Shown in pieces: positions 24,401-60,370 of a DNA stretch of 64,000 bases. Within the stretch, counting starts at the first letter, position 1; each line of letters starts with the position of its first letter. This stretch comes from Craspedostauros australis (taxonomy: Eukaryota; Bacillariophyta; Bacillariophyceae; Mastogloiales; Achnanthaceae): contig JAMXDE010000012.1 in NCBI GenBank assembly GCA_026770025.1, forward strand, positions 2,046,001-2,110,000. The letters run 5' to 3'. The notes beneath the pieces were generated by a model. The model was given only the letters and a program-made list of their open reading frames with translations, made no database searches and was not told where the DNA came from. The translations under genes and the position numbers were made by a program.

Positions 24401-27400
24401 TCCAACTTCCAAGGCATACAACATGAAGTCATTGACCGAGCACATTCCACATGCCCTCAATGCAACCATCACTACTGTTTCCTCTGCCAACCGCAACCTG
24501 TCCGAACCACAGAAGGAGCTGCTGCGTTGGCACCAACGCCTGGGCCACAATGACATGAGGAAGATCCAGCACCTTTTTCGTTCGGGAACCCTGGCGCACA
24601 CCGAAGCCGCACGCAAGCTACAAGCAAGCGCCTCCCGCCTCGCCACACTTCCAAAGTGCGCAGCATGCCAGTTTGGGAAACAAGTCTGTCGCTCAAGCCC
24701 TGGCCATCTGCACCGACCAGTACGTGATCGAGAGGGAGCCATCAAGTTCGGTAATCTTCGGCCTGGCCAACTCGTCTCTGTGGATCATTTTGAAGGGGGT
24801 GGAAAGGGACGACTCTTCTCGGGATATGGAAAAGGGAGCGATGACGAAATGTACGGAGCCGGCATCGTATTCGTCGACCATGCTTCAGGATTCATCTTCG
24901 CTGAGCCAGTCCTGTCTACATCTTCTCAAGACATGATCAGAGCAAAGGAGAAGTTCGAGAGCATGTGTCGAGATCTCGGCATTGTTGTCCAACAATACCA
25001 AAGCGACAATGGAAGGGCATTCACCTCATCAGACTATGCTGACCACCTTCAACACTTCCATCAATCCCATCGATATGCAGGACGCGGAGCACATCACCAC
25101 AACGGCATCGCCGAACGAAGCATTCGTACCGTGGTGTCAAGCGCTCGAACCATGATGCTCCATGCCACTCTGCACTGGCCCGAACTTGACGTCGTGCCAC
25201 TCTGGCCCATGGCAATTCGTCATTCCGCATTCATCTTCAATCGGCTGCCAAACCTCGCGAACGGCCTCTCTCCCTTCGACATCCTTGCCCGAATTCGCTT
25301 CCCACAGAAGCATTTCCACAACCTACACGTCTGGGGATGCCCCACTTATGTGCTGGATCACAGAGTTGGAGATGGAAAGAAGATCCCAAAGTGGAAGGCC
25401 CGGAGCGATCGTTTTGTGCACGTCGGCCTCTCCGAGAAGCACTCCTCTACCGTCCCACTGGTTCTGAATCTCAAGACTGGAAGCATCACACCTCAATTTC
25501 ATGTGGTGTTTGACGACTGGTTTGCCACAGTGCCTTCGGATCCATCCAACCTTCCCAACTATAACTCGGATCAATGGAGGAATCTGTTTGGAGATACCGA
25601 GTACAAGTTCCCTTTTGATGAAGAAGATTTGGAACGCCTCGAGCAGCAGGATCAGGAAACAGAGGAGCAGGACAGCCATGACCGGGATCTGAATCGCCAA
25701 CTCGCAGAGCAAGCAAATGCGGATCATCGACCATCAGAGCCGCTTCCTGTGGAACTTGGACCGGAGCTCCCACCATCACCATCAGATACTGCACCAGCGC
25801 TGGATGAAGTCTCTGCACCACCAACAGCTCAACCAACAAGTGCTGCAACTGATGCACCAAGAGAAGGCCAGAACAATATGGAGAAGGCCAACTTGCGAGA
25901 CTCAGTCCCACCATCGCGCAGGGAGGCTGCTCATAACAACAGGGGCGACGACAATGACACCATGCCACTCCCATCTGACGATCAGGACACCATGGACCAT
26001 GACAGACCCAGCGTGGAGACACCTGATGCTAGCTCAGCGAAGGCTCAGCCAGCAACATCTCCAGCTGCATCGGAACCAGCACCTCAACAGAGGGAGCGTC
26101 GCAGACGAAACCGACAACAGCAACCAGTCCGACGTTCAGCACGAATCGAGGCACGACGGGCAAGCACAAGAAACAGGGCTCCTCCACAACGTCTTGGGTA
26201 CAGCAAGATGGGTGGTATAGCTCAAGCCTTCACTTGCCAACCGATTCGCTCAGCCCCACCATCCATTGACACTGTGACAGCCGCCCACTTGTCGAACGCA
26301 ATCCTCTCAGCCACCGCATTCCTCAGGAGAACCAATGAAGGAAACAATGCACTTGTTTCGAAACTGCACAGCATCGAGACAGCAACGACCCACATCACGA
26401 CCTCTGTGGCTGAGCTTGAGAGATGCAAGCAGGACTCTTGCCGACGCACCGACCCCTACGTTGTACAGATGAACGACAATGCCAGAGCTCATTTGGTCAC
26501 TGCTGAAGAAGCTGCTTGTGACATGATCAGGGCCGCGCTCCTCGCTCTGTCTTCCTACAGCTCGCCAGACAACCACTTTCGTCCACAAGTTGGAGACATG
26601 TGCGAGACCATGTACGCAGTACAAGGCCTCCTGCTTCAGCGCGATCGAAGCGACGAGGAAGAGAGCGATGGAGGAGGAGACCGAATCATGATTCACATGG
26701 CCATCCAAGATGATGAGATGGGTCCAGACGGAGGGAATACGCAACAGGAGGAGGAGTTCTCTCTACCCCTCGACCTGCAGAACGAGGTCAATGCACTTGC
26801 CAACCTCCTCACCGCACTTCACATCATTGAGCACTACGGACTTGACGCATACTCAACCAACTTTGACTTTGATGAGCTCAGAGACTGGTGGACTCAGGTA
26901 GCTGCAGGCCACAATATAGATCCTCCGGAAGGGCTGCCTCGAGTCTCTCCCAATGGCGAAGATAACTCCCAATCCAATGCCTCCAGGTCCAGTGACAACC
27001 CCGACAGCAACATGCCCGATTCCACTGAGCAAGACACCAGCGACCATGATCCAGATGACGTTGAGCAATGCCTGTGGATCGACTCCATCCCGCAGCTCGC
27101 AGATCCATCCATGACCGCCTGCGACACCAACGGAGCAGAGGAATATGCGTTTCTGACGATGAATGAGGACGGCGAATCCGACCCATCTGGCAGATCCATT
27201 TCAGGATCCGAAGCCGTCTTCCTGATGTCTAACGGCCACCTGGAGCTGAGCGAGGGACCGAGCAGCTTCAAAGCATCACCAACAGACCCTGACACCCTTT
27301 CTTTCGATGAAGCTATGAAGGACGAAGACAGAGAGAAATGGATGGAAGCAGCCAAGAAAGAAGTCACAGACTTGGTCTCCAAGGGCACATGGGTCGAGGT

Positions 27401-28859
27401 CAGCAAGGCTGAAGCAGTTGGCAAGATCGCACCGGGTACCTGGGTGTTCCGTCGCAAGCGCCGACCTGACGGATCCATCAAGAAGCACAAGGCCAGGTTC
27501 TGCGTTCGAGGCGACCTTGTGGACGAAACAGAATCCACTCTTGCTCCTGTGGTCGCTTGGCCGTCGGTCCGCGTCTTCCTAATCACCGCAATTCTCCTTG
27601 GATGGGTCACTGTGTCAATCGACTTTGTGAGCGCCTTCGTCCAAGCCGCCATCCATCGAGACATCTACATCCACCTACCTCGGGGCTTTCGGTCAACCAA
27701 CGGACCCAATGTATGTCTCAAGCTCCGAAAGAGCCTATATGGCTTGACAGTGGCCCCTCGGCTCTGGCATGAGCACCTACTGCGAGCACTAACAGCTGAA
27801 GGGTTCAAGGCCAGCGAGCAGGACTCCTGTCTGTTCTTGCGCCCTGGGATGATGCTGGCACTATATGTGGACGACGCAGGCATTGCAGCACCACACGAGA
27901 AGGACATCGACAATTTCATCCAGTCAATGACCAGACGCGGCTTCGAGCTGACCAAGGAAGGAACGTTCAACGAGTTCCTTGGAATCAAACTGGATAAGAA
28001 CCGCGACGGATCGATCCACATGTCTCAGCAAGGACTGATCGATAAGATTATCGCGGCAACTGGAATGGAAGCGTGCAACCCAAACTGGATTCCTGCTACC
28101 AAAGCAGCTCTCGGTAGTGATCCGGATGGAGAAGCGATGAAGGAATCTTGGAACTATCGGTCAATCATCGGTATGCTGCTGTACTTGGCAACCAACACAA
28201 GGCCAGACATTGCGTTTGCTGTGTCCCAAGCAGCACGCTTCAGCCACGCTCCCAAGCAATCCCACGCCAGGGCGCTTAAGACCATCGTGCGGTACCTTGC
28301 GCGAACCAAGGCACAAGGCACCATCATCCGGCCATCTGGCAAGCTGGACCTGCAATGCTACGTCGATGCTGATTTTGCTGGGCTACATCATCGAGAGCCC
28401 GACGATAATCCTACATCAGTCAAGTTGCGTACTGGATACATCATTATCCTTGGAGGATGTCCTCTAATCTGGCGGTCCAAGCTGCAGACCGAGATAGCTC
28501 TCTCTACAACTGAGGCCGAATATGCTGCGCTATCAATGGCAATGCGAGCCCTCATCCCACTACAACAGCTCATTCGGGAGGTCGCCGCCCGCACCGGACT
28601 CAAGCAGGAGTTGCTCACGCATCTCCAGTGCACTGTGTTTGAAGACAACAACGCGTGTATCTCACTCGCAACGAAGCATCACATCACAAATCGCACCAAG
28701 CACTTTCTTGTGAAGTGGCATTTCTTCTGGTACTGGGTGAAGGAGGGCTTCATCAAGATCCAGCGCGTGGCATCCGCAGAACAAATCGCCGACATCTTTA
28801 CCAAGGGCTCAGTGCGGGAGATATTTGAGTCTCTTCGCAAATTGCTCATGGGATGGTAA
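21495..28859 (+). CDS. copia gag-pol polyprotein
   Basis: 2454 residues in one frame. Gag: Gln-rich N-terminus, CCHC zinc knuckle CHNCGEPGHVKANC at residue 458, and a second possible zinc site CAKCKRW...H...H near 527. Residues about 585-634 are strongly hydrophobic (GPLALLIGAFPLFIPLLIQV, then WETASIAAWMV) and are followed by about 200 very basic residues; neither is normal for copia Gag. Protease: WDSGST with Asp 857. Integrase: HQRLGH and CAAC zinc site near 1012-1058, catalytic Asp 1097, Asp 1171 and Glu 1207, exactly DD35E. A disordered linker of about 600 residues precedes RT (about 1960-2215, YVDD at 2124-2127) and RNase H (about 2285-2440, ending near ADIFTKG). Translated from the ATG at 21495; Gag/Pol ratio control by frameshift or stop is absent, as in copia. 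Confidence 0.95.
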   Translation: MADDQPEATVTQGGATTTQAEVAATQAATLEQLSQMQARLLAQQQQLNEASQVLQERLANLTEREEAHERLLQTEVSGVNTSQEIFELGRTAAETERELANRPTKPVMGNIVKVGKNWFPFTGGKPKADWSGLVDEPNTYLYVLQKRSTASGANVKSQPDMEKGLEPKFHRQSDLQAFQRDFMSELKARGLDTISYLKEPSDPEDTTSVVAHPYRFNQKTIMEEATEMASHFDEYDCRNNVTACRFLLNSLQPSLKDDILARVHPDQREDFVILWMELIEDLRTTTFDKYDRIKQNIRRRTPKTYAGENIKKFADDTRKDAQVLEDAGQYDHALTADILTKFLSAGGSGTSGERYRFGLHSKLGNLKEVLIQIGCCTKAEKDRRILKDRLHWRDVCNLATDLYKQELHAGQWHAASYLRNRKNSNAGYFLSGENGGIEIDESTALALMQNGGKTPIICHNCGEPGHVKANCPNLKKGAGSNHSSKGKKGSNNAKKGSSNTSWRSVPPSKGEPHQKVVRSSTFKWCAKCKRWLTSHGTSEHRSDFKDKDKNKSETAANTVTFDSTEWHVYKVMEESPSEWFQIIQAYLGPLALLIGAFPLFIPLLIQVLIFAVMHGWETASIAAWMVTATYLARKHHDMPRHPDGPVPKPRWQRRCEAYWEKKDRRRDQAQPKDWINFHRRAPIRLRHHRSRFDPPVSAMHASTNMHPRARAAGLRRRSHRVIGLENNPNKHRFRSTAFSNPRPRANSISHGARFGTRAVPIRRHEVQGPSKKKHRNQRQRMMVFDAPAQRQQLTEKQTGRLAQILSTYFKPEDAPPSNSVCTHDGPSSITSFSAVRHSSDELANVLPAKMISDVIWDSGSTVCISHDKSDFVSEPRRPIGNQAKKLTGLFGGRSDHLVGTVEWGIQDTRGNIRRLKFPAYYVPRSNAKIISTSVFERMYPGELQYVNGRWKVQGREGEINIEINPKNKLPTSKAYNMKSLTEHIPHALNATITTVSSANRNLSEPQKELLRWHQRLGHNDMRKIQHLFRSGTLAHTEAARKLQASASRLATLPKCAACQFGKQVCRSSPGHLHRPVRDREGAIKFGNLRPGQLVSVDHFEGGGKGRLFSGYGKGSDDEMYGAGIVFVDHASGFIFAEPVLSTSSQDMIRAKEKFESMCRDLGIVVQQYQSDNGRAFTSSDYADHLQHFHQSHRYAGRGAHHHNGIAERSIRTVVSSARTMMLHATLHWPELDVVPLWPMAIRHSAFIFNRLPNLANGLSPFDILARIRFPQKHFHNLHVWGCPTYVLDHRVGDGKKIPKWKARSDRFVHVGLSEKHSSTVPLVLNLKTGSITPQFHVVFDDWFATVPSDPSNLPNYNSDQWRNLFGDTEYKFPFDEEDLERLEQQDQETEEQDSHDRDLNRQLAEQANADHRPSEPLPVELGPELPPSPSDTAPALDEVSAPPTAQPTSAATDAPREGQNNMEKANLRDSVPPSRREAAHNNRGDDNDTMPLPSDDQDTMDHDRPSVETPDASSAKAQPATSPAASEPAPQQRERRRRNRQQQPVRRSARIEARRASTRNRAPPQRLGYSKMGGIAQAFTCQPIRSAPPSIDTVTAAHLSNAILSATAFLRRTNEGNNALVSKLHSIETATTHITTSVAELERCKQDSCRRTDPYVVQMNDNARAHLVTAEEAACDMIRAALLALSSYSSPDNHFRPQVGDMCETMYAVQGLLLQRDRSDEEESDGGGDRIMIHMAIQDDEMGPDGGNTQQEEEFSLPLDLQNEVNALANLLTALHIIEHYGLDAYSTNFDFDELRDWWTQVAAGHNIDPPEGLPRVSPNGEDNSQSNASRSSDNPDSNMPDSTEQDTSDHDPDDVEQCLWIDSIPQLADPSMTACDTNGAEEYAFLTMNEDGESDPSGRSISGSEAVFLMSNGHLELSEGPSSFKASPTDPDTLSFDEAMKDEDREKWMEAAKKEVTDLVSKGTWVEVSKAEAVGKIAPGTWVFRRKRRPDGSIKKHKARFCVRGDLVDETESTLAPVVAWPSVRVFLITAILLGWVTVSIDFVSAFVQAAIHRDIYIHLPRGFRSTNGPNVCLKLRKSLYGLTVAPRLWHEHLLRALTAEGFKASEQDSCLFLRPGMMLALYVDDAGIAAPHEKDIDNFIQSMTRRGFELTKEGTFNEFLGIKLDKNRDGSIHMSQQGLIDKIIAATGMEACNPNWIPATKAALGSDPDGEAMKESWNYRSIIGMLLYLATNTRPDIAFAVSQAARFSHAPKQSHARALKTIVRYLARTKAQGTIIRPSGKLDLQCYVDADFAGLHHREPDDNPTSVKLRTGYIIILGGCPLIWRSKLQTEIALSTTEAEYAALSMAMRALIPLQQLIREVAARTGLKQELLTHLQCTVFEDNNACISLATKHHITNRTKHFLVKWHFFWYWVKEGFIKIQRVASAEQIADIFTKGSVREIFESLRKLLMGW

Positions 28860-42817: not shown

Positions 42818-45800
42818 ATGAAGCTCAGCAACGCCATTCCGATACTTCTGCTGGTAGCACCGATAGATGCATTCACATCTTGGGCACCGCGTTCCTTCGT
42901 CTCGCGAACGGGTGCCAACGCTGCTCGATCGACCGACACACTCCTCTGGTCATCGACGCCACCATCGGATGCAAGTGACGACAATGGCAACAACGCTGAC
43001 GACAACGACAGCTCCAAGAACACTCTGGATGACGAAGTTCGCAGCGCGTACGACCAGTGGCGGACGCAATACGACATCGGAGACTATGATGAGGAACGAT
43101 ATCAGAACTTCAAGCTCAACTACATGTCCTTGATGGGCGCGAATTCATTCTCCATCCAACGCGCCCGCGAAGAAGGCAAGGATCCCGACACCCTCATGAT
43201 GCTCAATGAATTCGCCGACTTCTCCAAGGAGGAATACCGGGCCATGATGCAGGATCAGATGGCCAATTCCGATCAGATGGATTCCTTCACCAGCAACGAT
43301 GCCTACGGCGATGACGATGGCAACTGGGACGGCACCGGCTTTCAGACCTTCGGCAGCGTGGAAGATCTCGAAAATGCCATGGCCAATATGGACGTCGACA
43401 CGCCACCACCGCCACCACCTCCCGAGCAGCCACCCACACCGCCGCCAACCGCAGCATCGCTGCTGGCAGAGCCGCTGTCGCGGGTGCAACCGCAGGAGAA
43501 GTCGGCAGGTTTGCAGAGTTACGAGCGCAAAATGCAGGATGAACAAAAGAGGCTGCGGGCAGAATTTGAACGAGACCAGCAGCAGAAGTCTCAGCAGACG
43601 CCACAGCAGAAGCAGCTGCAACTGGAGCGGGAGAGGCAGCTGGAGCAGCAGCGACAACAGCAGCAGGACCAGCAGAAACTGGATGACAGCGTCAACGTTC
43701 CAGACGACAGGGAGGTTTGGACGGCATACACCGATTGGTGCAACGACTTTGGCAAACCGCTCAATGAGAACAGGTTCCCCAGTTTTAAACGGAACTACAT
43801 CTCCATGTCGCGCTACAGCCAGCAAAGCGGCAAGGTCATCACCCTCAACGAATTCGGAGATTACTCCTACGACGAGTACAAGGAGATGGAACTTCGGGGG
43901 AAGCAAATGCAACAATCGGCGAATGCCTTCGGGGCGGCGCCCAAGCCATTGCAGGTGGTCGATCCGCCCAAGTCACAGGCTGCGGAATCGTCTGAAGAAT
44001 CGAAACAGGATGCCGACAAACCGAAAGCCAAGTCGTTGACGGAGATGCAAGCCGAGGCTGCCAAGAAGGGATCGTCTGAAGAATCGAAACAGGATGCTGA
44101 CGAGCCAAAGCCTGCTGCAGCGAAGTCGTTGACGGAAATGCAAGTGGAGGCCGCCAAGAAGGAGGCAGACAAGTCGAAGCCGGTAGCCAAGTCATTGACG
44201 GAGATGCAGGTCGAGGCTGCCAAGAAGGAATCGGCCAAAGCACCCAAGGAGGATGCTGACAAGCCAAAGCCTGCAGCGAAGTCATTATCAGAAATGCAAG
44301 CCGAAGCTGCGAAGAAGGAGGCCGATAAGTCAAGGCCGGCGGCAAAGTCATTGACGGAAATGCAAGTCGAGGCTGCAAAGAAAGACTCGCTCAAGGATGG
44401 CGTTGCTGACAAGCCGGACGACGAGGCAGATGCGCCTGCTGCTCCCGCCCCGCCATCTCCCACCAAGGAGGCTAAAGAAGTCAAGCGGACTGATGCTGGC
44501 AAGAAATGGTTCAAGCTGTGGTCGTCAGAGAAGTCTGATGATGAGAACGCAGCACCAAAAGAAATCAAGGAGGAGCCAAAAAAGACGAAGGTCGACGCCA
44601 AAACAACGACACCTACAACACAGGCGGCGGTAAAGAAACCGAGCGAGGTCACCAAGGGTGACGGCATCGCAAATGCCGAAACCAACAAGTCATCGGACGG
44701 CACGGATGCGTCAACCAAGGTACCCACGAGCGGTAATTCGTCGACAGCGACAAAGAAGGACGACGGGGCGAAAGAGTCCAGCAACAGCGTCAAGCCACCT
44801 GTCGAGGAGACCAAGGTCTCAGCACCGTCACTCACCACCATGGCGAAAGCGGCCAAGGAGGCCACTGAAGCCGGTCTCGGCCAGCAATCGTCCAAATCAT
44901 CGACTTTCGATAGCCCGAACATTCCATCCATGCCATCCAATGCCGACAAGAGCACAGGCAAGTCAACCAATACCAAGCAGGTCACCATGATCAAGGAGAT
45001 GCCTTCCGAACAGGAGGATACATCTGGCGACGAGAAGAAGTCAATACAGAATACCTCCTCCGGACCACGGTCGCCGACGAGTCCGGATTCCGAGACATCC
45101 GGTGGATCGCCGCCGCCACCCAAGAATCCCTCCGGTTCCTCAAGTTCCTGGTCCTTGGATAATCTACAGAAGGCCGCGTCTATGTCATCTGACGAAAAGA
45201 AATCGAAAGAGACAGATAAGCCGTCAGATTTAACGACAAAGGCTGAACAACCAGAGAAGAAGGATGCACCTGCTGCCAGCAATCCATTCAGCGCGTGGTC
45301 ACCCAATGATTTGGGAACGCCAAAGGCGGAGGAGCCAGAGAAAGCTACCGAGTCCAAGAAGGCGGAGCCCGCAGCTAGCAATCCCTTCAGCGCGTGGTCA
45401 CCGAATGATTTGGGAAAGCAGGCTTCAGACACCAAGGAAACCGAGAAGGAGGAGAAGGCCCAACCCGCCAGCAATCCTTTCAGCGCGTGGTCACCCAACG
45501 ATTTAGAAACGCCCAAAACGGACAACATAGACACAACAACAAAGTCCAAGAAGGAGGAGGAGGCTGAGGAGAAATCGAAGAAGACCGAGCCCGCAGCCAG
45601 CAACCCATTTAGCGCATGGTCGCCTGGTGGCTCGGGAAGCAATGCATCCGACAGCAAAGAGACGAAGGAGGAGGAAACCAAGAAAGCACAGTCCGCGACC
45701 AGCAATCCATTTAGCGCATGGTCTCCTGGTGACTCGGGAACACCGAAGGCGCCGGAGCCAGTGAAGAAGTCGGAAACCAAGAAGACAGAACCTGTTACCA

Positions 45801-48800
45801 GCAACCCATTCAGTGCATGGTCTCCTGGCGGTTCAAGAACACCGAAGACAGAGGAACAAGAGACCACCCCCGAAAACAAAAAGGCAAAGCCTGCGACTGG
45901 CAATCCCTTCAGCGCTTGGTCTCCTGGTGGCTCGGACAGTAGTGAATCCTCTGACAGCAAGGAAACGAAGAAGAAGGAGGAGGAAACCAAGAAGGCAAAA
46001 CCTGTAGCCAGCAATCCCTTCAGCGCTTGGTCACCTAACGACTTGGGAGCACCGAAGGCAGACGAGCCAGATAATTCTACCGAGTCCAAGAAGGCTGAGC
46101 CCGCAGCTAGCAATCCCTTCAGCGCATGGTCTCCTGGTGGCTCGGGAAGTAATGAATCTTCTGACAGCAAAGAAACCAAGAAAGCGGAGGAACCAACGAA
46201 AGCAGAGCCTGCGGTCGGCAATCCTTTCGGCGCATGGTCACCAAATGATCTGGGAACACCGAAGACGGAGGAGCCAGAGAAAGCTACCGAGTCGAAGAAG
46301 GCAAAGCCTGCGCCCAGCAATCCCTTCAGCGCATGGTCGCCCAATGATCTGGGAACACCAAACGCGGCGGAGCCGAAGGCGGAAGAGCCAGAGAAAAAGG
46401 CACAACCAGCAGCCAGCAACCCATTCAGCGCTTGGTCTCCTGGCAGTTCCGGAGGCAATGCATCCGACAGCAAAGAGACGAAGAAGGAGGAAGCGACGAA
46501 GAAAGCTGGACCCGTTGCCAGTAATCCCTTCAGCGCTTGGTCTCCTGGTGGTTCAGGAAACGAGACCTCCGAGAGCAAAGATGCTAAAAAGGAGGAGACT
46601 GAGGAAGAACCGAAGAAAGCTCAGCCTGCGGCCACTAATCCTTTCAGTGCTTGGTCACCCAATGACTTGGGAACACCAAAGGCGGAGGAGTCAGAGAAAG
46701 CTACCGATTCCAAGAAGGCAGAGCCTGCGCCAAGCAATCCCTTCAGCGCTTGGTCTCCAAGCACTTCCGGAACTCAGCTTTCTGAGACCAAGGAGGAGAA
46801 GAAGGAAGAAGTGCCGAAGAAAGCAGAGCCTGCGGTCAGCAATCCTTTCAGCGCATGGTCACCCAACGACCTTGGAACACCGAAGTCGGAGGAGCCGAAG
46901 AAAGATCAGCCGGCTGGGAATCCATTCAGTGGATGGTCTCCTGGTGGTTCAGGAAGCAACTCCTCGGGCGATGACAAAACTGCTGACTCAAAGAAGAGAG
47001 AAGAAAAAGAGAAGGCAGAGCCCGCGACTAGCAACCCTTTCAGTGCATGGTCTCCCAACGACTTGGGAAGCAAGGCTTCTGATACTGGCACACCCGCAAA
47101 GACAACAAATGCAGTTTCAGAAGTCGAAGCCGAAGCCGAAACAACGACCGAGAAGCCTGAGCCGGCCAAGAATCCATTCAGTTCGTGGTCTGCCAACGAC
47201 TTGAGCAAGAACTCAACAGACAGCAAGGCAGAGGAACCAACGAAGAAGGTCGAATCTGCGGGGAACCCATTTAGTGCTTGGTCACCCAACGATTTGGAAA
47301 GCGGATCGTCGACCAGCGGAGCCAACGAAACATCTCCGAAGAGCGATGAGGAGACCGCTGGAGCCAAGGCAGCCGGGGCGAAGAAGTCAGAACCGGCCAA
47401 GAATCCATTCGGAGCATGGTCGCCAAACAACCTTGAGGCCAAGCCTGCTGAAAGCGAATCGGTCAAAGCGGCGGAGACCAAGAAGTCGGAGCCCGCAAAG
47501 AATCCATTCGGGGCTTGGTCGCCAACCAACGTCAATGTCGACAAACCAAAGGTGGAGGAAACCCAGAAAGAGAAGCCCGCCGGCAATCCTTTCAGCGCGT
47601 GGTCTCCCAATGACTTGAGTGCCAATTCGACAACCAGCGAGACGAGGGAAGCAGCGAAACCGACGGAGGAGGCGAAGAAGGCGAAGCCAGCGGGGAACCC
47701 ATTCAGCGCGTGGTCTCCCAGCGATCTCAGCGCAAATTCGACCTCCGATGGATCCAGCGAAAGCTTTGGTAAGACGCCGAAGAAGTCAGACGAAGCAAAA
47801 GTCGAGGAGGCACAGAAGCCGGAACCTGCGAATAATCCATTCAGCGCGTGGTCGCCAACAAATGCCAACGCCAAACCAGACAAGCCCAAGGCGGAGCAGG
47901 CCAAGCCAACCGCCAATCCATTTAGCGCATGGTCGCCAACCAACACCGACAAGCCAAAGGTGGAAGAGGCGAAGGATGCCAAGCCAGCCGCCAATCCGTT
48001 CAGCGCTTGGTCTCCCTCTGCCTCGAGCTCGAATCCCACAACTGACAAGGCGAGTGAAGCGGCTGGAAAGCCAGCTGAGCCGAAGAAGCCAGAGCCAGCA
48101 AAGAATCCATTCAGCGCATGGTCGCCAAGCAACACCACCACCGACAAGCCAAAGGTGGAGGAGGCCAAGCCAACCGCCAATCCATCTAGCTCATGGTCTC
48201 CTTCTGCATCGAGCTCGAACTCCACAACTGACAAGCTGAGTGAAACGGATGGAAAGCCAGCTGAACCGAAGAAATCAGAGCCAGCGAACAACCCATTCAG
48301 CGCATGGTCGCCAACCAATGCCAACAACACCGTCGACAAACCAAAGGTAGAGGAGGCGAAGGATGTCAAGCCAGCCGCCAATCCATTTAGCGCTTGGTCT
48401 CCCTCTGCCTCGAGTTCGGACTCCACAACTGTCAAGGCGAGTGAAGCGGCTGGAAAGCCAGCTGAACCGAAGAAGTCAGAGCCGGCGAACAACCCATTCA
48501 GCGCATGGTCACCGACCAACTCCAACACCGACAGTGACAGTGACAGTGACAAACCAAAAGAGGCTGAACCGACGAAAAATCCCTTCGGTGCATGGTCTCC
48601 CAATGACTTGAGCTCAAACTCAACAACAGACCAGACAAGCGCAACAGCTGGAGAGCCGCCACTTGAACTGGAGAAGAGTGAACCTGCAAAGAATCCTTTC
48701 GATGCGTGGTCGCCAACCAATTCCAACAGCGACAAGCCAAAGACCGAGAAGCCGCAGAAGATTGAGCCGAACAAGTCAGAGCCAGCGAAGAATCCATTCA

Positions 48801-51800
48801 GCTCCTGGTCACCGAACGATTTGGAGTCCAAGTCCGCACAAAATATCACCACGGGATCTTCCAGCACACCCCAGATGGCCAAAAAGCCAGAGCCAGCAAA
48901 GAATCCGTTTGGCGCGTGGTCGCCGACCAACTCCAATTCCGACAAGCCCAAGCCAGCTGAACAACAGACGGAGGAACCAAAGAAGGCTGAACCTGCAAAG
49001 AACCCCTTCGGCGCATGGTCGCCGACCAACATCACTACAGACAAGCCGACAACTGAGCAGCCGAAAAATGTCAAACCTGCACAGAATCCCTTCAGCCCAT
49101 GGTCTCCTTCAGGCACGGCCATGAATGCAACTGAGTCCGGTGGCAACGCTTCGACGAAGGATATGCAGCTGCAGCAGCCCAATACATCTGCTAGTTCCTC
49201 GGTTCCAGAGAGGCCTCAGGCAGCACCAACTGCTGACAAGCCAGTCAACTTCACCAGCTCAGCAATGGCACCGCCATCAGCATCAAATGGACCAGCGCAG
49301 ACAGGCACAAACAGCAGTGTCTTGGGTGTGCCATCGCCAGCTGGTGCTTCCAAGCAAGCGACGGAGCGGAACGTCGAAAAGAATGTCGTGGAAGCAAAAG
49401 TTGCGAAGCCATCTTTTTTCGATCAACCCAAGAAGGAAGAACCTCGCAAGAATCCATTTGGATCGTGGTCAACAGGCGGTGATGGTAGTGCTTCCGAAGG
49501 CAAGCCAAAAGAAGTTGCAGCGGGCAACAGTCTGGATGAGCCAAAGCCAGCAAGTGAAGCGTACAACCCACTATCAGCGAACAAGCCACAGCAGTCACCG
49601 CAGAAGCTGCAGAAGCAAGAGCAGCCTGAGCAGTTTGGCATTCCTTTCGTCACAGGAACGAATGACAACAAGCCGGTCACGCCAAAGGTACAACAGAAAT
49701 CACAATCGGCCCAACCTACGCAAGCAAAGGGTTCGTCCATGTCTCCTCCACCGAACAAGCCAACAACCAACGAGCCAGTGAAATCAGGAGCAACAAAGAG
49801 TGGAACTGTACCCTCAAAACCATCTCAATCAGGACCAGGGACATCATCAACGTCACAGCCACCACCGCCGCAGCGGGATCTGATTGCAGAACGGATGCAA
49901 CAGAGGAAGGCTGCGCCAGCACGAACAACGTTCTTCCCATGGTCGCCGGAGAGCGACAATTTCATGCAATCGGATGCTACTCCTGAAAGAGTTCCTGAGA
50001 CACCCAGGAAGCAAGCAGGATGGGCGATATCTTCGGCGCAAGGCGCGGCTCCAACGCCGAAAGGAGCAGGAGAAGTCGAAGTACCCAAACAACAACCCAG
50101 GCCTGCGGTTGAGCAGAAACTCTCGCAGGACAAAACAAAACAAAGGACACCGCCAACAGCATCGAAGGTTCCTCCTCTGACATCTGGATCTGGGTTCACA
50201 ACTGCTGTCACCAATGCACAAGCTGGAAAGCCAGCAGAAGACGGGAAGAAGGATGAAGCTCCGTCCCAAAACTCATTCTTTGGCAGCCTGGCGGATACTT
50301 TTTCGCCAAAGCAGAACACAAAGCAGGAACAGAAACCAAACGTGGAGAAACCAAAGATGGAGCAGCCAAAGATGGAGAAACCAAAGGTAGAAGTGAAGAA
50401 GAATACCACAACGCCAACCTCTGTGTTCGCAACCAAACCAGCCGCACCAAAGGACACCAAACCAGCGGTGCCGAAGAGTGCGGAAACTGGACAGCAACAA
50501 GGAGTCTCGCCACCACCACCTTCGTCCTCAGTTACCGGTAGCTCGCTGGATTCCATGGCAAGATCGCAGTCGACCAATGCGCCGAAGAAGCCCGCCGTCG
50601 AGCCGAATGAAGGCACAACCTTCTTTTCACCCAACAAGCCACCACAGGCTTTGGAGAAGCCTCCACAGCCACTCAAGGAGAAAGAGAAGCCGCCACCCGT
50701 TCCAAAACAAGAGCAAAAGCCACCTCCGCCACAGCAGCAACAGAAGCAGGGAGATGGCGCAGGGTGGAACCCGTTTGCACCGAAAGATGCTGCGCCAGAA
50801 CCGAAGGCCGACTCCGCTGCTCCAGAAATCACGAATGCCAAGCCAGACATCCCAGATCCAAAGAAGGACTCGCCGCCAAAGACATCAACTCCAGAGCAGT
50901 CCCAGCCAGAAACAACGACTGAAGGATTCGGAGGCTTCAGGATGCCGTGGGATAAGCCGAAGGAACCACCTGCTTCCAAGATCAAGGAAGAGGAAGACAA
51001 AAAGAAGAAGCTGCAGGAGGCGGCGGCGAAGGCTGAAGCTGAGGCAAAGGCGTCACAGATGAATGCAAAACAGGACGAGGCGCAGCAAAGTCAGAAACCG
51101 AAGCCACAATCGAAGGCGAAAGACTCCGTGGCGTCTTCTACCGCGCCAGTCAATGGCAGCGTCAATGGCGTATCTCCACGACAATCTCTGAATGGCACGC
51201 AGACTGGCCCGCAGAGCGTCACGCAACCGCTCAACCCTGCACGCAATGATCCACCACAATCCGTGCAGCCACCGAATCGTGCGCAGAATACTGCGTCGAG
51301 AACAACACAACATCCGCCCCAACGCCCGCCGCAACGCCCGAATGGATCGGCACAGGTTGCCTCTGAGAACAATTTGCTCAGCAGCAACCCTGTCAACAGA
51401 CTCCAGCAACCCGGAGGAGCTTCTATTGGACGACCCGGCGCCCCACCCCCGCAGCAGCCAGTGAATCGCCCTCCCGTCAATCGCCCGCCTCCACAAGCTC
51501 GACCACCCCAACAGACACGACCACCGCCACAAGCACAGCCGCCTCAGCGGCCTCAGCAACCGTCGCAAGTACAAGCCCAAGGGCGTCGGACGACATCGCC
51601 GCCTCCTCCGAATCGACCCAATCAACGACAGAATCCTCAGGCACAGCGGCCAAACCCTGGGCAGCAAGCAACGAACGGCGCATCTTCGGGATTCTTTGGT
51701 GATACACCACGACCCAATCCAAATGGATCGTACGGAGGTGGCAACCAGAACAACCAAGCTCCAACGGGCACCAGTGCTCAAGATTTGTTGGCAGAACCAT

Positions 51801-54800
51801 TATTCCCAAAAAACAACCAAGGCAGGGAAATGAAAAGTCGCATGCCCATTGAGTACAAGACGCAGTCCATGTCGGACAGAGTCGCGAACAAGATGCAATC
51901 GCAGAATGGGTACGACCAAATGCCCATGATCGACCGTCCTCTGAATGATCCCTTAGAGGCACCCAAAGAAACGGATACGAATAAAAAGCCCGACCAAAAG
52001 GTACCGGAGAAGTCAGATTCATCGTCATCTTCGAACTTCTTCAGTTCTGTCTCTACATTCCTTACAGGGGAGACAGAAGAAGAGAGAGAGCAGAAGAAAA
52101 AGGCGAAAGAGGCAGCCAAGCAAAAGGAGGCAGAAGAAGCTAATGAAAGAAGACTAGCAAAACAACGAGCCCAGAGGATTGCGTGGGAGAATGCGCAGGT
52201 CGAGAAAGAGAGAGAGCAGGAACGGAAGAAAGTCCAGATGCAAAAGGAGGCGGAAGAAGCGAAAGAGAGGCAGCTCGCGAAGCAGCGATCGCAGAGAATC
52301 CAGCGGGAGAATGTGCGACTCTCACGACAGAGAGAGGAGGAACGCGCCGAACGTGAGAAACAAAAGGAGGAAGAGAGGCTGGAGAAGCAGCGGTTGAAGA
52401 TCGAGGCGCAGCTGGAGCGTGAGCGGCAGAGAGAGGCCGATCGCATTGAGCAAGAACGAAGGAGAGAAGCCGAACAGATCGAAAAGGTAAGCAATGACGA
52501 TGTTGACAATGTTGAAGATGACGTTGACGACATTCGCGTTGATGATGTATCAATTTGTGTACTGATATGGCTCCGGGCAACACTACATTCGCCGTCTCAT
52601 TCCCTTTTGTTACATTTGACCGTCGCCTATCACGTCGCCGACACCACGCACGATGCTACTCTACTCTACTCTTCTCCACGTTTGTGACTGAGTGCGCAGG
52701 CTGCCCAAAAGCTTGCAGCGCAACAAGCGCAGTTGCGGAAAGAGCAAGAGGATCTGGCGGCGGAGAAAGCCCGTCAGTTCGCCCAGGAATGGGAGGTAAA
52801 GCAGCTCCGTTTGGCCAAGGAGGCTGTGGAAGCTGCGAGGCGCCGAGAAGAAGAGGAGCTGGCCGCCGAACAAGCCCGAATTGAGGCCTTGGAATGGCAA
52901 GGAATCCAGCGCGATTTGGAAAAAGAGGCCAACAAGGAAAAGCAGCGGCGGGAGATCCAGGAGATGATTGCGAAGAAAGTGGAAGGTAGAGCGAAGGAAC
53001 TGCAGAAGACACCACGACTGTCTCCGCCTGAACCTGAGAGTAAGAAGTTCGCACGACCACCGAAGTCCCCGCCTGTGACCAGTCTGGTCGATGGCAGCAG
53101 AGATCAAACGAAGGCCGATACTCGGGACAATTCGAAGAAGCAGAGTACCTCGTTTGGGTTTGGTGGGATCTTCACAGCGTTTGGAAGCAGCGTCGATCCT
53201 GGCGATGCGCCCGTCCCCGATGGTAGGTCCACCATTGTGATCGAGCCTGTTCCTGAGGAGAAGATCTGGAAGCCTTTCAAGTTCTTCGACATCTTCGTCT
53301 CGAAGGAGAAGCTTCGAGGTCAAACGGAACCAAGAATGACGATTGCCATCGCGCCCCCAGAGCCAGAGAAGGACTCGGACGCGCCAAGACGAGGAATCTT
53401 CTCCTGGATCTTTGCTCCAGGGTCATCGTCATCGAACAACGAAGAGAACAACGCTGGTGACCAGAGTGATGCTATAGCCGCCACTTCGTCGGTTGGTTCC
53501 GCCGCAAGCGGGCAGCCCACAACGCCGCGACCAATCCTTCTTTCACTCTTCGACTGGTCGAACAAGAACAAGGATGCGACAAACGACAAAGAAAAGAAAA
53601 TACAGAAGAGCCAACAGGCCAAGGCAACAAGCGCAGGCACATCCAACAAGCCATTTTCGATGTTTGGGCAGAGCGCCACCAATTCCACTGAAACACCAGT
53701 CGTACCTGGCATGGACAACAAGAAGGAACCAGACACCATGTTTGCATTTTCGTTCTTCAACCCGCCAAAGAACGTCACAAGCAAGCCAACCGCCGAACGT
53801 GTGCAACAGCCAGCGAAGAAAAAGCAACAAGCAGCATCTACGAATTATTTCTTCAGCAGGCCAACCAACCCTGTAGCAGACAAGACACCAGTCGACAGGG
53901 AGGTAAGTACTCTACCCGAGTCTTCTCCATGCATTTGCCGGATTTGATATTGACATCAACATGGTTTTCTCACCCCAGTCATCCTCATTTTGTTTCACTA
54001 ATATCTCAACTGACGCCGTGGCATGCTCCGAGTAAACTCCGCAAATGTGATGTGTGTGTACGTGTGTGCGCCATGATCAATCCTCTGGTACTGCCGTCAT
54101 CCATCGTAACAGGCTCAGCAAAGTAAGATCGCGGCACTCCGTGCCAGGTATGCGAAGAAGTCAGCCGCGGCGCAGACAAAGGTGACTCCTGCCCGAGCTT
54201 CTCCACCAGCAAGGAAGCCGGTGGTAACAGCTGTGACCAAGCCAAAACCAACGATGCGCATGCCAGCACAAACGAAAGAGGCCGCAGCAAGGCAGAAACC
54301 AGCACCTCAAACGAATTCGTTCGGTTCATTTTTTGGCATGGGAGGCAACCAACAGGCGGCAAAGAAGGAGGCGCCAAAGCCTAGAGCCACGGCGAAACCC
54401 AAACCAAAGCCATTAACGAAGCCAAGGCCCACACAAGTAATGAAGACGAAGCCGAAACCAAAGCCGATGGTGCGGCCAAAGCCAGTGGCAAAACCCAAAC
54501 CCGTCGTCAAACCAAAGCCAAAGGTGGCGGCGAAGGCCACGCCGGCCACCAAGCCAACGCCCAAGTCAGGCGGTCTGTTTGCCAATCTGCGATTAGGCGC
54601 AAAGAAGCCACCGCAACAGCCCAACATCAAGGCAGTCGTCGAAGTGCCAACCATCTCCTTGTGGAAGCAAAACCCAGACGGCACTATCACCGGTTTTGTG
54701 AGCGGTTCCCAGTCCATTCGCAACGGTTCCAAGATCACGACCTCCATCGTTCGGAACAGGGTGAAGCCAGGCGACGTCGTCTCCACCATCTCTGGCAGCA

Positions 54801-55156
54801 AGTACAAGCTCGCCAAATCCACGACGTCGTACAGTCCCTACGGCAAAACGCCGGAGGTCGCAGGACGCTCTAAGACTGCGACAACCGCAGGGCGTAACGC
54901 TAATGCACCGAAACAGCGTGGTTTCAATGCAGGCACTGGTGGGATGTTTGGTGGTGGCGGCGGCGGCGACAGTGGTGGAACCATGGCCGAGCTGTCGAGA
55001 TGGAAGCAGAACCGCGATGGCAGCATCACCGGCATCATCCGCAACAAGGCCGGTTTCGAGAATGGAACGAAGATCACGACGTCCCCCGTGAAGAGCGGAG
55101 CAAAGAAGGGGATGGTCATCAAGACCGCAGCAGGAAGCCGATACAAATTGATGTAA
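42818..55156 (+). CDS. giant disordered plastid-targeted NPFSAWSP-repeat protein; candidate pyrenoid Rubisco linker (PYCO1-like)
   Basis: Three exons: 42818-52486 (3223 codons), 52700-53902 (401) and 54113 or 54119-55156; both introns are GT-AG, about 210 bp, phase 0; total about 3971 residues. The upstream TTG at 42791 is ignored. Order: signal peptide then DAFTSWAP (F-type plastid motif); I29-like propeptide domains at about 74-146 and 298-359; five SLTEMQ helical repeats (about 404-523); about 38 NPFSAWSP-type repeats (822-2100); Pro/Gln-rich disorder; coiled coil (about 3085-3327); TIVI/aromatic modules (about 3375-3520); a Lys-Pro-rich stretch; and two WKQNxDGSITG domains (from 3808 and 3921). 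PYCO1 of Phaeodactylum binds Rubisco through repeated KWSP stickers, so W-S-P repeats in a plastid-targeted disordered protein suggest the same role. Alternatives: another plastid scaffold, or a silica-associated secreted protein. Presequence and repeats are seen; Rubisco binding is inferred. Confidence 0.8.
44027..44385 (+). repeat. five tandem AKSLTEMQxEAAKK repeats
   Basis: Units of roughly 22-30 residues, each with AKSLTEMQ(V/A)EAAKK, separated by short Lys/Asp/Pro spacers. The heptad-like spacing suggests amphipathic helices. Confidence 0.9.
45281..49111 (+). repeat. array of about 38 NPFSAWSP repeats
   Basis: Counted in translation: NPF(S/G/D)(A/S/G/P)WS(P/A), average spacing about 34 residues (103 bp). 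Spacers are charged (Lys/Glu/Pro/Ala). Early copies are followed by NDLG or GGSG, later ones by TNxN or SASS, marking subfamilies from segmental duplication. Degenerate relatives follow at about 49450 (NPFGSWST) and 49931 (FFPWSPES). Confidence 0.95.
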
Positions 55157-56109: not shown

Positions 56110-59100
56110 ATGAAGGTTCTGGGCAGCGCAGTCAGCACATGGCTGCTCCTGGCGTCCGCATCGGCAGTCGCCAACGGTTCCTCTTCGTCCAACATCGCAG
56201 CCTTCGCACCTGCGAGGATCCAACGATCGAGACATGCAGCGCAAACGCCATTGGTCGTCCTACCAATGGCCGCCACAGTCGATGACCCACAGCAACAGCA
56301 GTACCTCAACAACTACAACGGCAACAACAGCAACGGCAACAACAGCAACGGCAACAACAGCATTGACGATGCTGTCATCCGCGCAGCCTACGATCAATGG
56401 AGGCAGGAATATGGCAAGGCCGAATTCAACGCCGATCGTTACGAGCAGTTCAAGATCAATCATCTGGCGTTGGCGGAGAAGAATGTAGAGATGCAACAGC
56501 AGGCCATGAAGGGTGGCAGGCCCGTGCCGGCTGACATGACGTTGAACGAGTACGGCGACTATTCCCTGGAGGAATACCAAGCCTTGCTCAATGGCGATCG
56601 GTTGCACAAGCGGACTCTGCCCGTCATGTCAAATGACAAGTTGGTGAGTTCGCATGGTGCTGTCTGCGTGGAGCACGCCATTTGTTCAATTGCTCGCTGA
56701 GGTGTTGATGGCTGTGACCTGAAGGAATTGAAGGCTTGTCACGATGTTGATGATGACGATGGTCTCAATAGAGTCAATGCGTTCAAATGCAGCGCAGTGC
56801 GGCGCACTTGAAGTTGTTAGTGTGATGACATGCTACGCTCCCCTGTTCTCACCTCTGATGTCCTTGGACCATCACTCCATGCACGAACCACCAATGCATG
56901 CCCGTTCTTATCACCTCAACACGATCACCCTGTTTCACGCGTTTGCAGGCTCTCGCAAACCGACTTGGTATCGACAGCATCGATGAGCTGGAAGTCACGC
57001 TCGCTGCCTTCGAGTCGCCCATCGATCTCTCCAACGGCGTGCTGGACCCCGCTACGGTTGAGCGAGAATCCTTGGTGCGCGCCTACTACAGTGAGGCACG
57101 TGTGGCCTACATGGCCTGGTGCCAAAAGTACGAGAAGGAGCAAGACCCTATCCGCTTTTCCACCTTCGCCTCCAACTTTGCCGCCATGAAGGACTTCGCG
57201 CTCAAGAATGGCAAGCAGGTTCAGTTGAATCAGTACGCCGATTTTACCCAGCAGGAGTACCAGCAGCTCATCCAGAGTGAGATCGAACGCGTCCATGAGC
57301 AAGTCGCGGACCGTCGTGTGAAGCATGCGCAAACGGCCGGAACCTGGATCATTCCGGAAGATGCGGCATCTCGTGCCACCACTCAAGTTGCCACGGAGGT
57401 CACGCCAGCCACGACAACAGCTGCAGTCAATGGTAGCGGTTCTGGAATGCAATCCTACGTCGATTCTCTCAATGGAGCGACAGCGGCGACTCCGATTGAG
57501 CCAGAAGAACCGGTTTTCGAGGAGGCACAGGCTGCCAGCATCAACGGTGCCAATGACGCTGCGCCTGCCCAATCTGCAATCACCACAACATCTTACCTTG
57601 ACAACCTGTCCTTGAACACCATCGCGGACGATACGGAGCAACCACCATCGTCGTCGTCAGGTACGGGCAGTTACTTGGACTCTCTGGCTGCCGCGCCCCA
57701 ACCCAATGAACCGGATAGCGCAGGACGCTCAACGCAGCTGGTAGACGATCTGCCACCATCGGGCAGCGATGGATCTGCCCAGGATGCTTACGGACGCCCC
57801 GTTGTTGCGGCGCAACCAATGCAAGGAACGCAGGTCGTCCGAATGGGTGGCAACAGCCCGCCTGTTCGTGGCACTCAGGTCATTCAGCGGGCCGGTTCTG
57901 TGGCAGGCACGCAAGTGATCCAGAGTGCATCTGCTGTGGATCCGCAACCGCGGGGTACGCAGGTCATTCAACGTGCGAGCGACCAACAGCGACCTGTGCA
58001 AGGGACCCAAGTAATCCAACGGGCGAGTGATCAACAGCAGCCACCGATCCGAGGAACCCAGGTCATCCAGAGAGCATCCACCACACATCAACAACCGCGG
58101 GTGCAAGGGACTCAAGTTATCCAACGGGCGAGTGATCAGCAGCAACCGCCAGTGCGGGGAACCCAAGTTATTCAACGCGCAAGTGATCAGCAGCAGCCAC
58201 CTATGCAAGGTACGCAAGTCATCCAGCGGGCAGCTCCTGCAAACCAACAGGCACCAGTCCAGGGCGCCCAGGTCATCCAACGTGCAAGTGATGCCACTGG
58301 CTCTGTCGAGGCCAACGCACCTGCCTTGGTTGAGGATGAGACCGCGCGCAAAACGGCTCTCATCGAAGACACAACCGCTCCTACCACGACCACAACTGGC
58401 AACGACAATGCCGGTGATACCGCCACAGAAAAGAAGACTCTCCTGATTCCTGATGCACCTGAATCCGACGGCAATCCGCCACCGTTCAACTACGACGGGC
58501 CAGCCCGATCTACGGTCGTCATCACGAAGGAGCAGCAACAACAGCTTCAACAGGAGCAGCAACAACAACAACAACCAAAGCCAGAATCCACGGGCAACCC
58601 ATTCGCGTTCTTGCAATCTATCACCAAGGAGGCCGCATCGCTCCTAGGAGCATCTTCTCCGAACAAGCCAGAGGAGTACAACGTCTCCAATCCAGCACCA
58701 CGCGGAACCATCGTCATTCAGAAGGGCACTCCCCGTGCACAGACACCTGCGCGAGGCACCGTCGTGATTCAGAAGAACGGTGGGCGTGTCCAATCAGAGT
58801 CCAGTGCTGCTGCGGCTTCTACTGCTGTCCCTGCCACAAATGATAGACCCACCCAAGTCATTCGACCCAACACCGCTGCGCCTCCACAGACGAATGAAAA
58901 TGTTCGTGGAACCGTGGTCATCAAAAAGAACACCAACGCTCCAGGGCAAGTCCCAATGGGCACCCAAGTGATCCAACGAGCGCCGCAAGGACACGCAGCG
59001 GAGGACAAGAAGTCGTTGCCCCCAAAGTGGGACTTCCTCGGTTCATCCACAACCGATCAACCACCAGCTCCACAAGGCACAATCGTCTTGCAACGCAGAA

Positions 59101-60370
59101 GCGATGCAGCCGCCGCGGCCACCAACGACGGCAAACCAAGCATCATGTCCTTCTTCGGTGGCATGAAGCGTGATACCAACCCCAGAACCGTGCGGGGTAC
59201 CATCACGCTTCAAAAGGAAACCAAGCGGTCACCGCTCTCCTTGTTCGGTGGTGGCAAGGCCGCATCGAAGGATCCCATTGTTCGCAAGACGTTGGTGATC
59301 AACAGCAACTCCAAGAAATCTTCCATCTTTGATTTCCTTGGCGGTGCCACGAAGCGACAACCTCAAGCTGCCGCGACCTCTGCGAAAGCGGACGGTGACA
59401 AGAAGATCACCATCGTGATCAAGAAGAACGATGAGAACTTTTTGAATGTCGCGTATTCCTTGATTGCTGGTGGTGTGCGATCACCAGAATCGGTGTCCCG
59501 TTCCATCAAGTTGCCCAAGAAGTCGGTGAGTTATGACTTATTTGATGAATGAGAAAGAAGATGACTGTGCCATTGATGCCGTGCTGTGTTGTGCTGCATT
59601 GTGTTTGCTTGCTTGATTGATTGTTGGTTTGTTCTATGATGCGTTTACGCCGCATCCTCACCATTTTTCTCATTCTGTGCCGTCGTGCTCTGCTTGTTCT
59701 GGATGCATCTGGTCTATTCACAATTACATTGACACTGCCCTATGTGACCAAACCACACAATACAATACTATACTCCACAATGGACAACCATCAGCGCTCT
59801 GAAAAGGAGCAGATCGAAAACCAGGTCGCTCGTGCCCGCGCCAAGCACTTAGAACGCAAACAGAAACGCCTTGAGACTGAGGCCAGACAGGCTGAATCGT
59901 TGCGCAAGGCAATGGAAGAAAAGGCCGAAGCCGCACGCAAGAAGGCATCCAAGTTGAAGAAGGGCGATGAGGATAGCGCACCCGCGTTTTCCTTTCTGAA
60001 CAACCTCATGGGACAATCGGAAGAGAGCATGGCATCATCCACCACGACGCAAAAGCCAAAGAAGACGCCAGTTCCGCCCACCCAGAAGGCACCCATTCAC
60101 AACGAAGAAAAGCCCAAGTCGTACGCGTTCTGGAACAAGGACACCCCAAAGACCGACACCAAGAAGAGCAAACCGGCCGTGGATACAAGCAACATGCCCA
60201 CCTTGCGCCGATGGAAGCAGAATGCCGACGGTTCCGTGACAGGCCTGATCCGCAACTCCAAGAACTTTGCCAACAACACCAAGGTGACGACGTCCCCTCT
60301 TCCCCGAAATGCCACCGCGCAGAAAGGCGTGATCAAAACTGTGACCGGCTCGCAGTACCGATTGATGTAA
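56110..60370 (+). CDS. disordered plastid-targeted GTQVIQRA-repeat protein, paralogue of the AWSP-repeat protein
   Basis: Three exons: 56110-56643 (178 codons), 56949-59525 (859) and 59795-60370 (192 with stop), GT-AG introns of 305 and 269 bp with GTGAGT donors, all phase 0; total 1228 residues. The leader has a signal peptide followed by IAAFAPARIQRSRHA, a near-perfect ASAFAP plastid motif. I29-like domains sit at about residues 87-163 (exon 1) and 218-285 (exon 2). Ten GTQVIQRA units (471-625) are followed by looser GTVVIQK / GTIVLQR / TLVIN strands, each with a nearby aromatic block (FAFLQS, SFFGGM, LSLFGG, FDFLGG). Exon 3 has a charged coiled coil and ends with one WKQNADGSVTG ... GSQYRLM domain (from 1177). 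Architecture mirrors the gene 950 bp upstream, but there is no WSP repeat. Function unknown; a structural partner of the AWSP protein in the pyrenoid or stroma is my inference. No protease domain is present. Confidence 0.8.
57825..58283 (+). repeat. ten GTQVIQRA repeats
   Basis: Units of about 12-18 residues, each (R/Q/A)G(T/A)QV(I/V)(Q/R)xA, with Gln/Pro-rich spacers such as SDQQQPP. Codons vary between copies, so the conservation looks protein-level rather than simple recent slippage. Confidence 0.9.

Follow-up and report, generated by a model that had tools for sequence, protein, structure and literature searches.

Among described Rubisco linkers, the nearest point of comparison for the locus reported here is PYCO1 (Phatr3_J49957) of the diatom Phaeodactylum tricornutum. 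According to PMC10288592, PYCO1 carries the sticker KWSPRGGS, whose Trp packs on the GGS of the next sticker, and Trp-Ser-Pro (WSP) forms the heart of its small-subunit sticker; a GTGYNP tyrosine motif is assigned to homotypic phase separation, PYCO1 and EPYC1 are both described as positively charged, and no BLAST homologue of PYCO1 is reported beyond P. tricornutum. In Chlamydomonas, according to PMC10473226 and PMC13086578, SAGA1/2, RBMP1/2 and the kinase KEY1 share a Rubisco-binding motif. This motif holds KEY1 at the pyrenoid, and KEY1 phosphorylates the Rubisco-binding sites of EPYC1 (PMC13086578); LCIB/LCIC act in CO2 recapture at the pyrenoid periphery (PMC10473226). A repeat spacing of 20–120 residues has served as the range for finding Rubisco linkers (PMC11570498).

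Much of the carbon fixed in the ocean is fixed by diatoms, and a selected 39-copy Trp-Ser-Pro array in a second diatom bears on whether Trp-Ser-Pro stickers recur. Here, we describe a gene encoding such an array, located in a window of 64,000 nucleotides (the whole stretch of DNA analysed) within contig C10 of a 74.8-Mb genome assembly. Elsewhere in the window, positions 11704-13092 encode a YjeF_N protein (PF03853, 115.7 bits) whose N-terminus reads as plastid-targeted, and positions 21495-28859 hold a single 2454-residue frame that, by eye, is a copia-type gag-pol retroelement.

The giant gene and its sticker array

The giant gene (42818..55156, forward strand, as are all its features) comprises three exons, joined by GT-AG introns into a single frame of 3971 residues with no internal stops. 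Exon 1 (42818..52486, residues 1–3223), defined by its open frame and GT-AG junction, is followed by intron 1 (52487..52699, GTAAGC...GCGCAG), exon 2 (52700..53902, residues 3224–3624), intron 2 (53903..54112, GTAAGTA...TAACAG) and exon 3 (54113..55156, residues 3625–3971 and the stop). Read by eye from the translation, the protein begins with a signal peptide and an F-type plastid cleavage context (42818..42871; ...APIDA↓FTSWAPRSF, cleaved between A and F), by which the nucleus-encoded giant would be imported into the plastid. Two I29-like domains follow. The first (residues 74–143, 43037..43246) matches Pfam Inhibitor_I29 below the curated cut-off (17.9 bits for the giant against 24.4) and aligns by blastp to the tandem neighbour and to a multi-I29 protein encoded on contig C22 of the same genome; the second (residues 299–357, 43712..43888) aligns to the C22 protein at 47% identity over 64 residues (E 4e-15). 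An A/K/E-rich stretch leads to the sticker array (residues 822–2219, 45281..49474), after which come a P/Q-rich stretch, a charged coil-like region recognised by eye and interrupted by intron 1 (residues ~3080–3330, 52055..53020), a K/P-rich stretch and two copies of a domain that we name the W-domain. A charge-hydropathy plot placed 186 of 196 segments of 60 residues in the disordered class, a crude measure that also scored as disordered the I29-like and coil regions and part of the chain holding one W-domain. The first-pass annotation of this DNA had proposed a plastid-targeted, extremely disordered protein of nearly 4000 residues with folded ends and about 38 evenly spaced Trp-Ser-Pro motifs, and this outline agrees with the spliced frame, the N-terminal context, the disorder plot, the I29-like, coil and W-domains, and the motif counts below.

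The array contains 39 copies of NP[FS]xxWS, 37 of which read WSP and 36 NPFxxWSP; a 38th WSP lies outside the motif at residue 2375. The first 38 copies, which end at position 49108, are separated by 37 spacings of 25–46 residues (mean 34.3, s.d. 5.2), and copy 39 lies 122 residues beyond copy 38. By the measures of a FLIPPer-like linker search, the giant is largely disordered in charge-hydropathy, and 37 spacings lie between 20 and 120 residues, the last being 122. In 1000 shuffles of the giant protein, WSP occurred on average 0.76 times (maximum 4) and NP[FS]xxWS 0.007 times (maximum 1). The array has no Cys, His or Tyr.

At the codon level, the WSP serine varies between TCT, TCA and TCG across copies, and all four proline and three alanine codons are used. 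Over all pairs of the 39 copies, the core residues N, P, F, W, S and P gave a pS of 0.75 and a pN of 0.011 (pN/pS 0.014); pN/pS was 0.063 for the whole octet, 0.72 for the five codons 3' of it and 0.68 for the six codons 5' of it, so that the constrained part of the sticker is N-P-F-x-(A/S)-W-S-P. Recent DNA duplication does not account for the copies, since synonymous sites are near saturation and the core residues hardly vary. The contrast between core and flanks shows that the motif's amino-acid sequence matters. At the sequence level, the sticker idea is strengthened by this test for selection, and the relaxed flanks suggest that the linkers mainly set distance. A repeat search at E<=1 returned 11 matches within the giant gene and one weak match elsewhere that lacks repeats, and no homologue of the array appeared among 7994 scored candidates.

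Relation to PYCO1 and the host Rubisco

Like the giant, whose plastid targeting is putative and read by eye, PYCO1 is plastid-targeted and disordered, contains Trp-Ser-Pro in its repeat unit and occurs in an organism with a diatom Rubisco. The two proteins differ in size (592 residues with 6 repeats of ~80 residues in PYCO1, 3971 residues with 39 copies at 34 residues in the giant), in charge (pI 10.03 for PYCO1 against 5.06 for the giant's acidic array; 8.97 for the mature giant) and in their stickers, KWSPRGGS and NPFxAWSP, which overlap in the three residues W-S-P; the I29-like, coil and W-domains of the giant lie beyond PYCO1's make-up. Residue by residue, the sticker KWSPR/Q is missing from the giant, with K at -1 in 0/39 copies and R/Q at +3 in 0/39, and neither K[WF]SP nor WSPR matched anywhere in the protein. 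The giant also contains no GTGYNP motif, its array having no Tyr, and no EWxSMN, PYCO1's large-subunit motif. GGS, which in PYCO1 makes the groove for the adjacent Trp, comes after WSP in 6 of 39 copies, within the flank with pN/pS 0.72. A 30-residue query typed from the published PYCO1 motifs matched nothing in the PDB. Given the missing KWSP, WSPR, GTGYNP and EWxSMN motifs and the acidic array, an assignment of the giant to PYCO1 or to linkers of its type is unsupported.

To look for a PYCO1-like gene, we searched the whole genome with nucleotide patterns encoding KWSP and, directly after it, a codon set including R and Q, using reversed patterns as controls. The two patterns gave 37 and 36 matches against 20 and 4 for the controls, and no KWSP cluster emerged elsewhere in the genome, the closest two of the 73 matches lying 4.2 kb apart on opposite strands; such a search misses genes with another sticker type. 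Pattern AARTGGAGYCCNMR accounted for 36 matches against 4 for its reversed control, and many of these have TGGAGTCCGAA in common, perhaps marking a repeat family.

The Rubisco genes of the host, rbcL and rbcS, lie on contig C90, and their closest PDB chains are diatom Rubisco, the best five for the small subunit including 7YK5 (P. tricornutum) and 5MZ2 (Thalassiosira antarctica). Compared with 7YK5, the C90 small subunit keeps the PYCO1-contact residues N105 and N133 and has S instead of G at 137; all seven large-subunit contacts of PYCO1's second motif are present if the C90 fragment is numbered from a 490-residue chain. These contact residues may be common to diatoms generally.

As a proxy for expression, we took all codons for N, D, F, Y, K, E and Q and used the fraction ending in C or G. 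The giant scored 0.63, its array 0.66 and the tandem neighbour 0.62, within the 0.59–0.71 of six other genes (four in the window, a W-domain kinase on C1 and a MiaB-like gene); scaffold-like genes on C18, C22, C47 and C8 ranged over 0.59–0.73. In comparison, the LCIB-type carbonic anhydrase described below reached 0.86 and six FCP genes 0.78–0.92. The giant's ordinary codon bias, unlike that of LCIB, argues against an abundant bulk linker; since a low copy number could suffice for a protein with 39 stickers, it does so without excluding a linker altogether. That the giant is this diatom's bulk Rubisco linker, a functional and mechanistic counterpart of PYCO1 as the first-pass annotation had it, therefore appears improbable: the shared WSP, high valency, disorder and the absence of a KWSP cluster elsewhere by pattern search would fit, but the motifs that define PYCO1 are missing, the array is acidic and codon usage gives no sign of high expression. 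Of that linker reading, what survives is the targeting (by eye), the disorder, the valency, the selection on the Trp motif and a tie to CO2 fixation, and what lacks support is membership of the PYCO1 type; the tie itself comes through features that the earlier annotation had not seen, the shared W-domain with its LCIB link and, weakly, the tandem paralogue next door.

The tandem neighbour and the W-domain family

Downstream of the giant lies a tandem paralogue of 1228 residues (56110..60370, forward strand; exons 56110-56643, 56949-59525 and 59795-60370, the last splice acceptor being chosen among five that preserve the frame), which aligns to the giant at both ends by blastp. Its I29-like domains are accompanied by ten GTQVxQ/R repeats, a coil-like stretch and a single W-domain (60185..60367), the last aligning to the giant's W-domain 2 at 61% identity over 56 residues (E 2e-15). 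The GTQVxQ/R repeats, in the exon 56949-59525, are a second type of short repeat beside the giant's stickers. An SYLDxL stretch of the neighbour (57549..57707) resembles Pfam DPC2 (PF25195), whose pyrenoid link is its family name, 'Diatom pyrenoid component 2', but its score of 24 bits is below the cut-off of 70 (exon E-value 5e-5). The giant itself has no DPC2 match, and a whole-genome DPC2 search at E<=1 yielded six matches on C12, C18 and C22, none above the cut-off and none on C10.

Several other genes share these elements. Two related small proteins on C12 (L040:4091-4951 and L041:4377-5096, both reverse strand) consist of a signal peptide and SYLDxL repeats, match DPC2 as proteins at sub-threshold 53.7 and 41.6 bits, and have codon biases of 0.90 and 0.96, as high as those of light-harvesting genes, making them candidate abundant pyrenoid proteins. 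The C22 protein (L033:2395-7902), 1835 residues with a signal peptide, combines nine I29 stretches (together 172.5 bits, eight of the nine individually above cut-off) with SYLD-like motifs, and so employs the cathepsin propeptide domain in an unusual way. On C18, a coil-like protein of 976 residues (L042:3282-6212) has SYLDxL repeats, with an upstream frame encoding a signal peptide and F-type context.

The W-domain spans 60 residues, has no Pfam family and occurs twice at the giant's C-terminus, as W-domain 1 (residues 3799–3858, 54635..54814; 79.3 bits against a profile of which it is itself one row) and W-domain 2 (residues 3914–3971, 54980..55153), which ends the protein and for which AlphaFold2 gave five strands at a pLDDT of 90.7. 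An alignment of 22 sequences, both giant domains included, has six invariant columns in a W, G, TS, T, S pattern. The top fold match was SANTA (M18BP1/KNL2), a likeness that is structural only and weak (E 0.05, 14–15% identity, Z tied with DNMT1 RFTS); SANTA proteins are kinetochore proteins, and the Pfam SANTA profile was silent in this genome and in 14 control genomes.

We found nine W-domain genes in the genome: the giant, its neighbour, three coil genes, three kinases and one LCIB-type carbonic anhydrase, the sole metabolic enzyme found with the domain. The coil genes (L034, L035 and L036) are plastid-type and have three W-domains each; their short hydrophobic repeats, for example PRPSFSIP and RSTFSLGxLF, echo the giant's stickers. 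By eye, seven of the nine genes, LCIB included, have F at the cleavage site and one has W, the C48 kinase being ambiguous. This residue, F in the giant, tells against a repeat protein of the cell wall or an adhesive, secreted by a signal peptide alone, a reading to which we give very little credence, even though the giant is very long, repetitive and rich in Ser, Thr and Pro, giant adhesive proteins occur in raphid diatoms, and I29 domains occur in secreted cathepsins.

The carbonic anhydrase gene (L043:7698-9264, contig C53) encodes a signal peptide and a W-domain, which splicing joins to an LCIB_C_CA domain (247.2 bits). The 403-residue model is identical to the MMETSP transcript-derived protein P0007, which supports the splice model and shows that the gene is transcribed. 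Among the best 120 of 1120 homologues, 27 of the 29 with a length of 385–410 residues have the W-LCIB fusion (P0007, identical to the C53 protein, among them) and the remaining 91 all lack it, as judged by a profile that contained the C53 protein's own W-domain. For the LCIB gene, the best full-length relatives with a name come from Cylindrotheca fusiformis (69%) and from a Bacillariaceae MAG (66%), which makes it likely that the host is a pennate diatom. This network places the giant near CO2-fixation components without leaning on the WSP resemblance, and the fact that its one metabolic enzyme is an LCIB-type carbonic anhydrase with a conserved fusion makes it unlikely that the giant is a plastid scaffold apart from the pyrenoid (at thylakoid, envelope or division machinery) whose W-domain is an adaptor of general use in plastids. 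The three W-domain kinases and the indirectness of the giant's pyrenoid ties would speak for such a role.

A proposed high-valency scaffold compared with known pyrenoid systems

Taken together, we favour, tentatively and at somewhat below even confidence for the full proposal, a plastid-imported, mostly disordered scaffold of ~425 kDa in the pyrenoid or the CO2-concentrating machinery, acting as a low-abundance cross-linker of very high valency with Rubisco as the likeliest partner of its stickers. Within this proposal, a high-valency plastid scaffold of pyrenoidal location is probable, and Rubisco binding by the stickers is plausible. The NPFxAWSP stickers, set on near-neutral polyampholyte linkers of 17–38 residues, would bind weakly and multivalently, most likely to Rubisco through PYCO1-like Trp-Ser-Pro contacts, and the I29-like domains, coil and W-domains would anchor the chain to a network of the neighbour, the W-domain coil proteins, the kinases and LCIB. 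More speculatively, Ser-Pro, present in 37 of 39 stickers, is a type of site open to phosphorylation, and the W-domain family has kinases.

Several observations favour this proposal: the strong constraint on the motif core relative to its flanks, a sticker spacing inside the linker-search range (PMC11570498), a WSP that is the heart of the PYCO1 sticker together with a Rubisco whose contact residues are largely present, the absence of another such array from the repeat and KWSP searches, a W-domain that eight further genes have as well, among them LCIB_C_CA with its recurrent fusion, and the neighbour's weak match to DPC2. Against it count the sharing of W-S-P alone with KWSPRGGS and the rarity of GGS, an acidic array where PYCO1 and EPYC1 are positively charged, a codon bias within that of ordinary genes, DPC2 and I29 matches below Pfam cut-offs with the neighbour absent from the whole-genome DPC2 matches, the lack of an array homologue among the scored candidates, the kinases making up 3/9 W-domain genes, and targeting judged by eye. 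Some of these points, namely the ordinary codon bias and the missing PYCO1-specific residues, along with the W-domain network and its LCIB link, would suit a pyrenoid or CCM scaffold whose WSP stickers bind another partner, such as a W-domain, a shell protein or an abundant SYLD-repeat protein, the giant then being a client hub or matrix-periphery tether like Chlamydomonas SAGA/RBMP. We consider this a real but less probable alternative, as WSP is identical to that of the one characterised diatom Rubisco sticker and no such partner was seen.

Of these findings, the W-domain network is the most useful: it yields a short list of nine genes, one a carbonic anhydrase with a recurrent fusion. Compared by description with EPYC1 and CsLinker (PMC10473226 and PMC11570498), the giant, our candidate high-valency scaffold, is likewise a disordered chain with an even sticker spacing that might span from one Rubisco to another; EPYC1 has five stickers, whereas the giant, a candidate Rubisco binder, has 39 in an acidic array. 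The W-domain could conceivably play in diatoms the part that the Rubisco-binding motif plays in Chlamydomonas, gathering scaffold, LCIB and kinases at the pyrenoid, with the giant as high-valency organiser and the W-domain kinases setting condensate size through phosphorylation of sticker Ser-Pro, although we regard this as doubtful. The Chlamydomonas motif is a small module found on scaffolds, a kinase and pyrenoid clients, much as the W-domain is found on scaffolds, kinases and an enzyme; the former is short, linear and Rubisco-binding, whereas the latter is a folded domain of 60 residues.
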